DNA of 33,572 nt from NCBI GenBank assembly GCA_949285255.1, contig CASDXV010000020.1, forward strand, positions 1 through 33,572, given 5' to 3'. The notes under the pieces are model-generated. The model was not told the origin of the DNA. It did not search any database and saw only the letters and a program-made list of their open reading frames with translations. Position 1 is the first letter of the stretch, and each line of letters begins with the position of its first letter. The stretch is from an uncultured bacterium. Its GTDB lineage: Bacteria > Cyanobacteriota > Vampirovibrionia > Gastranaerophilales > Gastranaerophilaceae. Below, piece by piece: positions 2,946 to 33,143 of the stretch. Both the position numbers and the translations under genes were made by a program.

Positions 2946-3100
2946 CGGGATGTAGCGCACCCGAGCAATGCGAATTTTAGTGCGACTGCACTTAAATGAG
3001 CAAAGTGAGGGCTCTGGTGTGTGAAGTGCGATGTCAGCAAAGCGGAGAGCTTTGGTGACAAGCAAGTAACCGTACCTTTTTTGACAGTTAAATATTTTTT
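2946..3100 (+). repeat. tRNA-Pro 5'-fragment unit A1 (155 bp)
   Basis: CGGGATGTAGCGCA (2946-2959) is identical to the first 14 nt of tRNA-Pro(UGG) at 3191. It is preceded by the same 20-bp leader (TTGACAGTTAAATAAAATTT, from 2926) as the intact gene. The tRNA sequence then breaks off into unrelated DNA with small hairpins, among them AGTGC-GACT-GCACT and an AAAGC/GCTTT stem near 3045. An antisense D-arm, seen in the other upstream units, is not evident here. Not a functional tRNA. Confidence 0.8.
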
Positions 3101-3190
3101 CGGGATGTAGCGCACGTTTTGCGCAAAGCGCGAAACAAAAGGTATAAAATACCAAGCTGCGTCCACAACATTGACAGTTAAATAAAATTT
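3101..3190 (+). repeat. tRNA-Pro 5'-fragment/hairpin unit A2 (90 bp)
   Basis: The unit begins with the same 14 nt of tRNA-Pro. A 9-bp hairpin follows (GTTTTGCGC 3116-3124 with GCGCGAAAC 3128-3136), then a second hairpin GGTAT-AAA-ATACC (3141-3153), then CCAAGCTGCG (3152-3161), the reverse complement of the tRNA D-arm. GGATGTAGC (3103-3111) can pair with GCTGCGTCC (3156-3164), closing the whole unit. The leader TTGACAGTTAAATAAAATTT of the intact gene follows at once. The same 90-bp design recurs at 32693-32873. Confidence 0.85.
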
Positions 3191-31718: not shown

Positions 31719-31747
31719 TTGACTTTAGTTTATGTTTGTTGTGAAAT
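31719..31747 (+). promoter_or_regulatory. Candidate promoter of rpsL-rpsG
   Basis: TTGACT (31719-31724) and TGAAAT (31742-31747), spacing 17 bp. The -35 is good, the -10 poor. Confidence 0.4.
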
Positions 31748-31779
31748 ATATGTTACAAATACTTAAACAAGGGGAAACT

Positions 31780-32154
31780 ATGCCAACTATTAATCAATTA
31801 GTTAAAAAAGAAAGAAAGAAAATTATAGACAAAACTAAATCACCTGCGCTGACAAACTGCCCGCAAAGACGTGGTGTTTGCACAAGGGTGTACACAACCA
31901 CACCTAAAAAACCGAACTCAGCAATGAGAAAAGTTGCTCGTGTAAGATTAACTAACGGTTTTGAGGTTACTTCATATATTCCGGGTATCGGACATAACCT
32001 TCAAGAACACTCTGTTGTGCTGATCAGAGGCGGTAGGGTTAAAGACCTCCCCGGTGTGAGATATCACATTATCCGTGGTACATTGGATACTGCTGGTGTT
32101 GCAAACAGAACGCAAAGCAGGTCTAAATACGGCGCAAAGAGAGCTAAAAAGTAA
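31780..32154 (+). CDS. rpsL: 30S ribosomal protein S12
   Basis: 124 aa from ATG 31780 ([14 protein letters not shown]), preceded by AGGGGAA; the frame extends upstream to 31732, but that part is leader. The decoding-centre loop [12 protein letters not shown] has lysines at positions 43 and 44, the streptomycin-sensitive form. [25 protein letters not shown] is near-universal. S12 monitors codon-anticodon pairing in the small subunit. rpsG follows 19 bp later. Confidence 0.98.
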
Positions 32155-32173
32155 GAAAGGTTAAGTAAAGTAA

Positions 32174-32644
32174 ATGTCAAGACGTTCTAAACCGGCAAAA
32201 AGAATACCATCGCCGGATCCTATATATAACAGTGTAGATATAGCAAAATTTATAAACCGCCTTATGAAAAAAGGCAAAAAGTCAATTGCTCAAAAGATTT
32301 TTTATTCTACAATGAGCAAAGTTGAAGAAAAAACAAAATCAGAACCGATGGAAGTGTTTAAGAAGGCACTTACAAACGCTACTCCTTTAATTGAAGTTAA
32401 GGCAAGACGTATCGGTGGTTCTACATATCAAGTTCCTATCGAAGTAAAGGCTGACAGGGGTCAAGCCCTTGGTTCTTGCTGGATTATTGAAGCTGCAAGA
32501 AAAAGAGGCGGAAAATCAATGGTTGAAAAACTTACAAACGAAATTGTTGATGCTTCTAACGGTATTGGTGCAGCTTGCAAAAAACGTGAAGATACTCACA
32601 AAATGGCTGAAGCAAACAAGGCTTTTGCTCATTACAGATATTAA
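32174..32644 (+). CDS. rpsG: 30S ribosomal protein S7
   Basis: 156 aa, full length. MSRRSKPAKR...PDPIYNS, VKARRIGGSTYQVPIEV and KREDTHKMAEANKAFAHYRY are typical. S7 nucleates assembly of the 30S head and contacts the E-site tRNA. The gene is followed by a terminator, whereas fusA and tuf follow rpsG in most bacteria. Confidence 0.98.
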   Translation: MSRRSKPAKRIPSPDPIYNSVDIAKFINRLMKKGKKSIAQKIFYSTMSKVEEKTKSEPMEVFKKALTNATPLIEVKARRIGGSTYQVPIEVKADRGQALGSCWIIEAARKRGGKSMVEKLTNEIVDASNGIGAACKKREDTHKMAEANKAFAHYRY

Positions 32645-32650
32645 TCTAAA

Positions 32651-32674
32651 AAAGCCTCTTTATAGAGGCTTTTT
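32651..32674 (+). terminator. Intrinsic terminator after rpsG
   Basis: AAAGCCTCT-TTAT-AGAGGCTTT followed by T's. Confidence 0.93.
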
Positions 32675-32692
32675 GTGTGCATTTAAAAGTGT

Positions 32693-32782
32693 CGGGCTGT
32701 AGCGCACGTTTTGCACATTGTGCGAAACAAAAATATATATTCCAAGCTGCGCCCAAAGTGATTGAAAATTTAATAATTGTGT
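32693..32782 (+). repeat. tRNA-Pro(GGG) 5'-fragment/hairpin unit C1 (90 bp)
   Basis: It begins CGGGCTGTAGCGCA, the first 14 nt of tRNA-Pro(GGG). The hairpin GTTTTGCAC-ATT-GTGCGAAAC (32708-32728) follows, then an AT-rich piece and CCAAGCTGCG, the inverse of the tRNA D-arm. GGGC/GTAGC (32694-32703, one bulged T) can pair with GCTGCGCCC (32746-32754). The last part repeats the tRNA leader. Confidence 0.85.
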
Positions 32783-32873
32783 CGGGCTGTAGCGCACGTT
32801 TTGCACATTGTGCGAAACAAAAAATATATATTCCAAGCTGCGCCCAAAGAGATTGAAAATTTAATAATTGTGT
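32783..32873 (+). repeat. tRNA-Pro(GGG) 5'-fragment/hairpin unit C2 (91 bp)
   Basis: A tandem copy of C1 with one inserted A and one T-to-A change. The intact tRNA gene begins at the next base. Confidence 0.85.
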
Positions 32874-32950
32874 CGGGCTGTAGCGCAGCTTGGTAGCGCA
32901 CCACCTTGGGGTGGTGGGGGTCGCAGGTTCAAATCCTGTCAGTCCGACCA
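32874..32950 (+). tRNA. tRNA-Pro(GGG), CCA encoded
   Basis: Acceptor CGGGCTG/CAGTCCG, D-stem GCGC/GCGC, anticodon stem CCACC/GGTGG with loop TTGGGGT (anticodon GGG at 32908-32910), T-arm GCAGG-TTCAAAT-CCTGT, discriminator A and CCA. With the UGG and CGG genes near 3.2 kb it completes the proline set in this window. Confidence 0.97.
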
Positions 32951-32957
32951 TTTAATT

Positions 32958-32982
32958 ACCTCCTTATAAAAGGAGGTTTTTT
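32958..32982 (+). terminator. Intrinsic terminator of tRNA-Pro(GGG)
   Basis: ACCTCCTT-ATAA-AAGGAGGT followed by six T's. Confidence 0.92.
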
Positions 32983-32984
32983 GT

Positions 32985-33090
32985 TGACAGGATTTGAACA
33001 ATGTGCAAAGTCTTGCTTTGCTCACAAGTTCGCAAACGTCCTGTCAGTCCGACCATTTAATTACCTCCTTATAAAAGGAGGTTTTTTGTT
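32985..33090 (+). repeat. tRNA-Pro(GGG) 3'-fragment/hairpin unit
   Basis: TGACAGGATTTGAAC (32985-32999) is the exact inverse of the tRNA T-arm (32927-32941). It leads into an imperfect long hairpin (GCAAAG-TCTTG-CTTTGC in the centre, closed by TGACAGGA/TCCTGTCA). From 33039 to 33090 there is a perfect 52-bp copy of the tRNA 3' end with its CCA and terminator (the original is at 32934-32985). Confidence 0.88.
33063..33087 (+). terminator. Duplicated copy of the tRNA-Pro(GGG) terminator
   Basis: Same sequence as 32958-32982, part of the 52-bp duplication 105 bp downstream. Confidence 0.85.
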
Positions 33091-33093
33091 AAA

Positions 33094-33143
33094 TAAAAAA
33101 AGAGGCGTGAAAATTGATATTGATATTACCTGGAGCACGCCTC
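33094..33143 (-). terminator. Intrinsic terminator of the glycine-rich protein gene
   Basis: On the minus strand GAGGCGTG (complement of 33136-33143) pairs with CACGCCTC (complement of 33102-33109) around a 26-nt loop and is followed by seven T's. Confidence 0.8.

Follow-up and report, generated by a model that had tools for sequence, protein, structure and literature searches.

In a stretch of 33,572 nucleotides (nt) of DNA from an uncultured bacterium of the Gastranaerophilaceae (contig CASDXV010000020.1 of assembly GCA_949285255.1, positions 1 to 33,572; the whole stretch is the window referred to below), the tRNA-Pro(GGG) gene is directly preceded by two tandem units of about 90 nt, each of which joins a copy of the 5' end of this tRNA to an arm that is antisense to it. 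Our comparison of this locus with other tRNA loci and other genomes establishes that such units are real, widespread in one genus, clearly tied to the tRNA of the gene at which they lie, and kept in their pairing. While tRNA genes are usually regarded as compact and static, in at least one genus of gut bacteria about one third of those analysed here (59 of 191) carry, on their upstream side, a copy of their own tRNA together with a mirror copy of it, and some have such cassettes downstream. With intermediate confidence, we favor a model in which the units are tRNA-end repeats that multiply at the DNA level, with an additional RNA-level constraint on those of the 5' side. The assemblies directly support the architecture, the own-tRNA specificity, the existence of mirrored units on the 3' side, the presence or absence of units among species, and one copy shared across loci. 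The window is one contig of a 1.6-Mb genome in 43 contigs (G000), the assembly of which is 92% complete. At tRNA-Pro(GGG), it holds the following features:

32693-32782, + strand: unit C1, 90 nt, a direct repeat with C2; its first letter corresponds to tRNA nt 1
32693-32706, + strand: C1 sense copy of tRNA-Pro(GGG) nt 1-14, exact match
32708-32728, + strand: C1 inner hairpin H1, which folds and covaries among 17 units
32742-32752, + strand: C1 antisense arm, exact complement of tRNA nt 10-20
32762-32775, + strand: C1 boxA-like motif, pattern TTGAMARTTNAATA
32783-32873, + strand: unit C2, 91 nt, direct repeat, directly 5' of the tRNA
32783-32796, + strand: C2 sense copy of tRNA nt 1-14, exact match
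32798-32818, + strand: C2 inner hairpin H1, which folds and covaries among 17 units
32833-32843, + strand: C2 antisense arm, exact complement of tRNA nt 10-20
32853-32866, + strand: C2 boxA-like motif, pattern match
32874-32950, + strand: tRNA-Pro(GGG), by ARAGORN and Rfam RF00005
32985-33055, + strand: mirrored 3' unit, by comparison of repeats and of matches with the tRNA
32985-32999, a hairpin, and 33039-33055, + strand: parts of the 3' unit, namely antisense of nt 54-68, the hairpin, and sense nt 61-77
33063-33082, + strand: duplicate of the tRNA terminator at 32958-32977, in a direct repeat of 52 nt

Each C unit runs from tRNA nt 1-14 through the 9-bp H1, an A/T-rich stretch and the antisense of nt 10-20 to TTGAAAATTTAATA, and C2 is longer than C1 by a single A. 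The sense copy ends at nt 14, and the antisense arm reaches beyond it to tRNA nt 20 as an exact complement. At a second locus in the window, tRNA-Pro(TGG), two further units are present behind a promoter-like site:

2867-2896, + strand: promoter-like site 5' of A1 and A2, a consensus match only (10/12)
2946-3100, + strand: unit A1, long type, 155 nt, 5' of A2 at tRNA-Pro(TGG)
3101-3190, + strand: unit A2, 90 nt, directly 5' of tRNA-Pro(TGG)

An earlier note on this DNA had proposed that C1 and C2 share their plan with A2, 29.6 kb away, and this is borne out by units of 90, 91 and 90 nt. It was also right that both C units begin with CGGGCTG, as does their tRNA, and A2 with CGGGATG, and that the inner hairpin GCAC/GTGC of the C units corresponds to GCGC/GCGC in A2. 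For the outer stem, which had been described as GGGC/GCCC against GGAT/GTCC, both combinations pair, but in different registers: in the C units, nt 2-5 (GGGC) pair with GCCC and U6 is bulged, while in A2, nt 3-6 (GGAT) pair with GTCC, without a bulge and with a single G.U. Compared with dinucleotide shuffles, the folds have z-scores of -1.6 for C1, -1.8 for C2 and -4.9 for A2. A single C unit is therefore weak evidence, and it is the set of units that carries the weight. Long-type units of about 155 nt, such as A1, are also present at other loci (L008, L009, L015, L058, L061 and L062); they have the 5' tRNA copy of the short units but a larger and different body, which is duplicated at L008.

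To count units, we searched up to 250 nt upstream of each tRNA gene for at least 10 exact letters of the 5' end of its own tRNA together with at least 10 letters of its own antisense; as a control, each tRNA was compared with flanks taken from tRNA genes of a different amino acid. With the upstream stretch cut at a neighboring tRNA, both elements were present at 59 of 191 tRNA genes in six genomes of the genus, as opposed to 13 of 5642 mismatched pairs of tRNA and flank. Without the cut, the count is 60 of 191, with A2 then serving two neighboring tRNAs of G000. Per genome, upstream matches were found at 13/30 tRNAs in G000, 13/33 in G014, 11/35 in G008, 9/31 in G010, 6/31 in G005 and 8/31 in G004. 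Downstream, the 3' sense copy and its antisense occur together at 15 of 191 tRNAs and in none of the 5642 mismatched pairs. The units are not specific to proline. Outside the genus, G034 (another genus of the same family) has both elements upstream of 3/30 tRNAs, partial samples of three further genera gave 1/11 (G016), 0/16 (G019) and 0/11 (G022), and no units were found upstream of the tRNAs examined in G020 (0/37) or in G045, which belongs to another family (0/35). In G019, a sense copy is present upstream of 7/16 tRNAs and both elements downstream of 4/16. Related but diverged units occur in other genera. The totals of tRNAs called by Rfam (30 in G000, 34 in G014, 36 in G008, 32 in G010, 39 in G005 and 34 in G004; outside the genus, 34 in G034, 43 in G020 and 43 in G045) lie at or above the numbers tested, which means that part of the tRNAs is left out of these counts.

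Two sets of loci illustrate how occupancy differs. At tRNA-Asn, G000 and G014 have a unit where G008 has none, and the promoter-proximal leader is similar. In G000, 84 of 84 nt are identical 5' of tRNA-Ala(GGC) and tRNA-Val(GAC), which lie on different contigs (L080 and L086; C10 and C11); the shared stretch belongs to a unit with the 5' copy of the Val tRNA, and tRNA-Ala(GGC) of G008 has no unit. As a separate observation, the unit upstream of tRNA-His in G000 (L091) carries sense nt 37-47 plus a short extra copy of nt 1-13, and no 10-nt antisense match was found in it.

Altogether, the collection comprises 91 unit entries, 82 of them distinct (A2 is counted twice among the 91), at 21 kinds of tRNA in seven genomes, and 81 of the 91 are 87-101 nt long. 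In 5' units, the sense copy mostly ends in the D-loop near nt 14 and the antisense lies within about nt 5-34. All 16 distinct 3' units have a sense copy that begins in the region of the T-loop, at nt 60-70, and 10 of them are, by our reading, separated from the tRNA by a hairpin with a T-run. The inserted hairpins vary from tRNA to tRNA; in other genera, a hairpin with constant ends, CTCTGCCGA...GAGAGG, often occupies this position in the D-loop. Some second hairpins of units resemble a T-arm, for which reason a tRNA-like mini-tRNA cut by RNase P was considered as a candidate.

Near its end, a 5' unit typically carries a motif that we call boxA-like because it recurs, as TTGAAAATTGAATA, in a related genome, G045, where it is part of the leader of the 16S rRNA; boxA is the label for such a leader motif. 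The pattern TTGAMARTTNAATA has 26 matches in the genome and its reversed version three. With up to two mismatches, the motif is present in 82 of the 91 units, in 79 of these within 14 nt of the unit end. Among tRNAs of the genus, a match lies within 60 nt of the gene for 60/65 that bear units and 49/126 others; the corresponding counts are 7/37 in G020, 3/35 in G045 and 34/822 in control windows. The motif suggests that Nus factors may bind there. Windows of 80 nt contain a promoter-like pair with a score of at least 9 in 28/63 cases when placed directly 5' of the first unit, in 11/69 when placed directly 5' of the tRNA and in 34/276 controls, and such pairs are found in 49/72 leaders of unit-free genomes. 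Thus, the units seem in general to be part of the transcript, with the promoter outside the array, and the site upstream of A1 fits this arrangement.

For the letters of the antisense arm, as for the consensus, strand and fold-competition counts below, units with N or outside the length limits were excluded. Of 1057 letters in antisense cores, 599 match tRNA positions past the end of the sense copy. These 599 letters have no partner in the sense copy, and the arm therefore answers to the tRNA itself. By contrast, the outer stem P1 of the Pro units has letters (for instance GCCC, GTCC, GCTC, CTCC and ACCC) that pair with nt 2-6 of the same unit, in a register that differs from that of the tRNA complement and that plain copying does not explain. 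Both partners of the antisense arm, its own sense arm and the tRNA, thus seem to matter. The earlier note had offered two accounts, namely that the paired structure is kept or that the antisense arm is repeatedly regenerated from the adjacent tRNA. The first is supported by P1 and by the covariation described below, and the second by the 599 letters tied to the tRNA; neither is sufficient alone. At 103 positions, a sense letter of the unit differs from the tRNA, and the antisense follows the tRNA in 78 cases, agrees with the unit in 11 and with neither of them in 14; the 78, however, consist mostly of the letter that comes directly after the end of the sense copy. The D-arm of the tRNAs is nearly invariant within the genus, which limits the power of this comparison, and only tRNA-Ala(TGC) shows a clear change in the tRNA that is mirrored in the antisense arm (GCACC to GCATC).

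For covariation, 17 distinct Pro units from the fetched loci, which come from related species, were aligned, and the pairs of the structure that we propose for them were counted against shuffles. Paired cells make up 95.3% in the Pro units and 33-50% in slid controls. Four pairs are changed on both sides (shuffled mean 1.5; reached in 2/500 shuffles), as are 12 cells (shuffled mean 3.5; 0/500), and the covariation score is 0.184 as opposed to 0.130 in shuffles (reached in 0/500). For one of the five measures, the number of further pair types, the units did not exceed the shuffles (10 versus 10.6). In H1, all cells of the nine pairs are paired and three of the nine pairs are changed on both sides; in P1, 94.9% of cells are paired. 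Arms that vary independently of one another, the pattern that would speak against a kept structure, were looked for in the aligned units and not found. A consensus fold without G.U has Watson-Crick double changes in 10 of 240 pairs, a count that is of little use because forbidding G.U selects invariant pairs.

Template correction yields paired changes without selection. The units could be a pure mutational by-product, in which quasi-palindrome correction at tRNA hairpins builds and perfects the stems with no selection on RNA. To separate RNA from DNA, we called stems with G.T and A.C mismatches scored alike. The ratio of G.T to A.C is 28:8 in 77 distinct 5' units and 34:8 in tRNAs, compared to 397:427 in shuffled units and 25:25 in unit-free leaders, and the transcribed strand is predicted to be the more stable one in 48 units versus 29 (p = 4e-4). 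Stem covariation and the G.T bias of the 5' units are direct observations, as is that this bias is not seen in the few 3' units. An excess of G.T over A.C is unexpected from a strand-symmetric correction, and so are P1 pairs outside the tRNA register; 3' units without such a bias, and copy number and presence that differ among species, fit a by-product. Overall, we consider this explanation unlikely. Constraint at the RNA level on the 5' side has moderate support from these sequence comparisons, and only moderate support because the units are not independent of one another.

In the model that we favor, a DNA-level event would found a unit by turning back at the D-loop (5' side) or the T-loop (3' side) of a tRNA gene. 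After the antisense of the D-arm, a fresh boxA-like leader would follow, and then the next copy or the intact tRNA. Arrays would lengthen through slippage or unequal crossing-over between direct repeats, and cassettes would occasionally reach another tRNA gene and then adopt the letters of that tRNA. Since 5' units mostly lie in the tRNA leader, they would also be constrained as RNA. In the transcript, the antisense arm could pair with its own sense arm (fold A) or with the D-arm of the tRNA (fold B), and in fold B, nt 1-7 of the unit would form the acceptor stem in place of the 5' strand of the tRNA itself. The units may in this way affect tRNA maturation, at least as something that is tolerated.

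Several observations weigh against this model. Fold B is not strictly kept, as some units no longer match tRNA nt 1-7. Among the Pro units, the third helix is weakly supported, with only 75% of cells paired, and 3 of the 17 units break the P1 pairs 8-65 and 9-64. The strand signals weaken when counted by tRNA kind: the sense strand is more stable in only 15 of 21 kinds (p = 0.08), and G.T exceeds A.C in nine kinds with the reverse in four. Moreover, the 3' set (16 units with 2 G.T and 5 A.C) is too small for a firm contrast with the 5' units. Finally, C1 begins 18 nt past the T-run of a terminator-like hairpin behind an rpsG-like open reading frame (the reading frames at 31732-32644, just 5' of the C array, resemble rpsL and rpsG), and no convincing promoter was found between this hairpin and C1, the sole promoter-like site lying within C1 at chance level. 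Expression of tRNA-Pro(GGG) may, judging from this arrangement, depend on read-through from upstream.

The competition between the two folds was modeled in ensembles of the last unit with its adjacent tRNA (n = 61), in a model without tertiary contacts or folding during transcription. The predicted pairing probability is 0.95 for the antisense arm with the tRNA and 0.885 for the first nucleotides of the unit with the 3' acceptor strand of the tRNA. The native acceptor stem is predicted at 0.910 for the tRNA alone and 0.002 with its own unit; with one randomly drawn partner per tRNA, it is predicted at 0.636 when the unit comes from a different tRNA and at 0.748 when the leader is foreign and empty. 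In 60 of 61 cases, fold B is more than 3 kcal/mol more stable than the parts apart (fold A), with a mean of 11.5. For the C units, predicted fold B leaves the anticodon and T arms native, puts H1 in the place of the D-arm and loops out the old 5' end. In other words, the native acceptor stem is predicted to give way to a competing 5' half supplied by the unit, which is a prediction of the model and not a finding. A self-lock, in which selection would keep the unit closed and thereby stop its antisense arm from trapping the tRNA, was rejected in this form because it fails in the model; the predicted pairing of the arm with the tRNA is 0.95 with the real head of the unit and 0.97 with a shuffled one.

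These predictions raise the possibility, which we consider doubtful although deserving of attention, that selection maintains the 5' units as bistable switches that act on the maturation of the tRNA, with fold A permitting the native tRNA, fold B holding it back, and a signal or Nus factors at boxA setting the balance. This explanation would account for one arm with two competing partners that are both kept (the P1 register and the letters past the sense copy), for the predicted loss of the native acceptor stem with the own unit and the advantage of fold B, and for the enrichment of the boxA-like motif near unit-bearing tRNAs. On the other hand, fold B is predicted to win nearly always and nothing in the model balances it, the energy models ignore tRNA tertiary structure and co-transcriptional folding, the mirrored 3' units, of which 10 of 16 lie behind a terminator-like hairpin, share the design without such a role, and G020 and G045 do without any unit at those of their tRNAs that were analysed. 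A possible, if improbable, extension is a genome-scale set of cis-acting folding switches of pre-tRNAs, in which many tRNA genes have one or more matched units in a leader that gates the maturation of its own tRNA; such units would supply a rival 5' strand of the acceptor stem plus an antisense clamp on the D-arm.

Alternatively, a mobile miniature palindrome could enter D- and T-loops of tRNAs and duplicate the tRNA end as its target, with an enzyme that reads the folded single strand. Support for this comes from a hairpin, CTCTGCCGA(22-50)GAGAGG, that occurs in 34/58 relatives with up to 43 copies per genome (0/58 for the reversed control). It is found in the D-loops of truncated tRNA copies, and inverted in three 3' units (Lys in G016, Phe and Met in G019), where the inverted hairpin points to the tRNA as it does in 5' units; 4 of 30 fetched loci (L386, L387, L390 and L399) have no visible tRNA-like flank. 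The cassette copy shared between the Val and Ala loci also fits. However, the strict pattern has no match in G000, which has a degenerate copy at tRNA-Met, and arms that match each new host tRNA are unexpected for a moving element. In addition, a Y1 transposase (PF01797) was found in 1/15 genus genomes, as was an IS110 Transposase_20 domain (PF02371), and neither has a match in G000. Mobilization by Y1/RAYT is thus not supported, an IS110 bridge RNA (left target as sense, right target as antisense) was rejected on the same grounds, and the Y1 locus fetched from G019 (L257) contains no exact CTCTGCCGA hairpin. We regard a mobile element as improbable. As to the hairpins themselves, members of the family (in G019, G034, G025, G023 and others; L370-L399) have variable, well-paired arms and are reminiscent of a kink-turn in that GA flanks the stem on either side; a G.G mismatch is common to several copies.

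That the units are an artefact of metagenome-assembled genomes (MAGs) is very improbable. The same units recur at corresponding tRNAs in several MAGs and inside contigs, and related but diverged ones occur in other genera. It is nevertheless the case that at least 8 of 30 tRNAs of G000 lie within 300 bp of a contig end, as opposed to 0.48 expected (at the high end, the count covers contigs of known length), and that the Gastranaerophilales records found for close relatives, one of them named Galligastranaerophilus, are MAGs or bins. Because contig ends crowd at tRNAs, the arrays probably break assemblies, and tRNA genes may thus be points at which MAGs built from short reads are interrupted in this group.

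The closest known counterparts are the tyrT/tyrV repeats of Escherichia coli (rttR small RNA), which have the same design as the 3' units described here and were reportedly described decades ago. In E. coli MG1655 (L400, 1286000-1288200), three repeats with a period of 178 follow behind the tyrV gene. Each ends in tRNA nt 67-85, i.e. the last 19 nt, and before its hairpins has the antisense of nt 68-77, GGGGAAGGAT. For comparison, 0-1.4% of mismatched pairs had an antisense match of 10 letters on the downstream side of the tRNA. At tRNA-Pro(GGG), the 3' unit likewise contains the 3' end of the tRNA (33039-33055 = nt 61-77), while C1 and C2 contain the 5' end. All three also have an antisense arm inside the repeat, against nt 54-68 for the 3' unit and against nt 10-20 for both C units, and C1-C2 form a tandem array on the 5' side, with one unit on the 3' side. 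In the one E. coli locus examined, the units follow the tRNA, and a single 10-nt sense match but no antisense was found upstream of tyrT. Here, by contrast, 5' units predominate, many tRNAs are involved, and the units are mostly boxA-like and mostly of about 90 nt. If 5' units did act as switches, tyrT might by analogy be a relict or a parallel 3'-side case.

Other known systems share single traits. REP, REPIN and BIME elements are hairpin-forming short palindromes whose arms are not known to match a neighboring tRNA. The units resemble them as short imperfect palindromes in tandem or dispersed, with the differences that the arms here do match the neighboring tRNA and that the Y1 (HUH) transposase of the REP/RAYT type has 0 matches in G000; similarly, the IS110 transposase that goes with bridge RNAs has 0 matches in G000. 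The rRNA-type leader shares the boxA-like motif, which is present here once per unit in tRNA leaders. No known Rfam family covers the units: a scan of the window at gathering score returned five tRNAs and nothing else, and in a lax search of 32660-33100 only the tRNA was above gathering score. Also, no description of such units was found in the open-licence literature searched, which is weak evidence of absence. Thus, the class is known from one locus, and what seems to be new is its 5' version, the boxA-like motif, its spread over many tRNAs, and the competition between folds that is predicted here.

The finding places the tyrT repeats of E. coli in a wider class that follows a rule of antisense arm, hairpin and tRNA end, and it provides many parallel natural experiments on how tRNA-derived repeats originate, spread and remain matched to their tRNA. 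If the predicted fold competition held true in cells, it would constitute a new control of tRNA supply.
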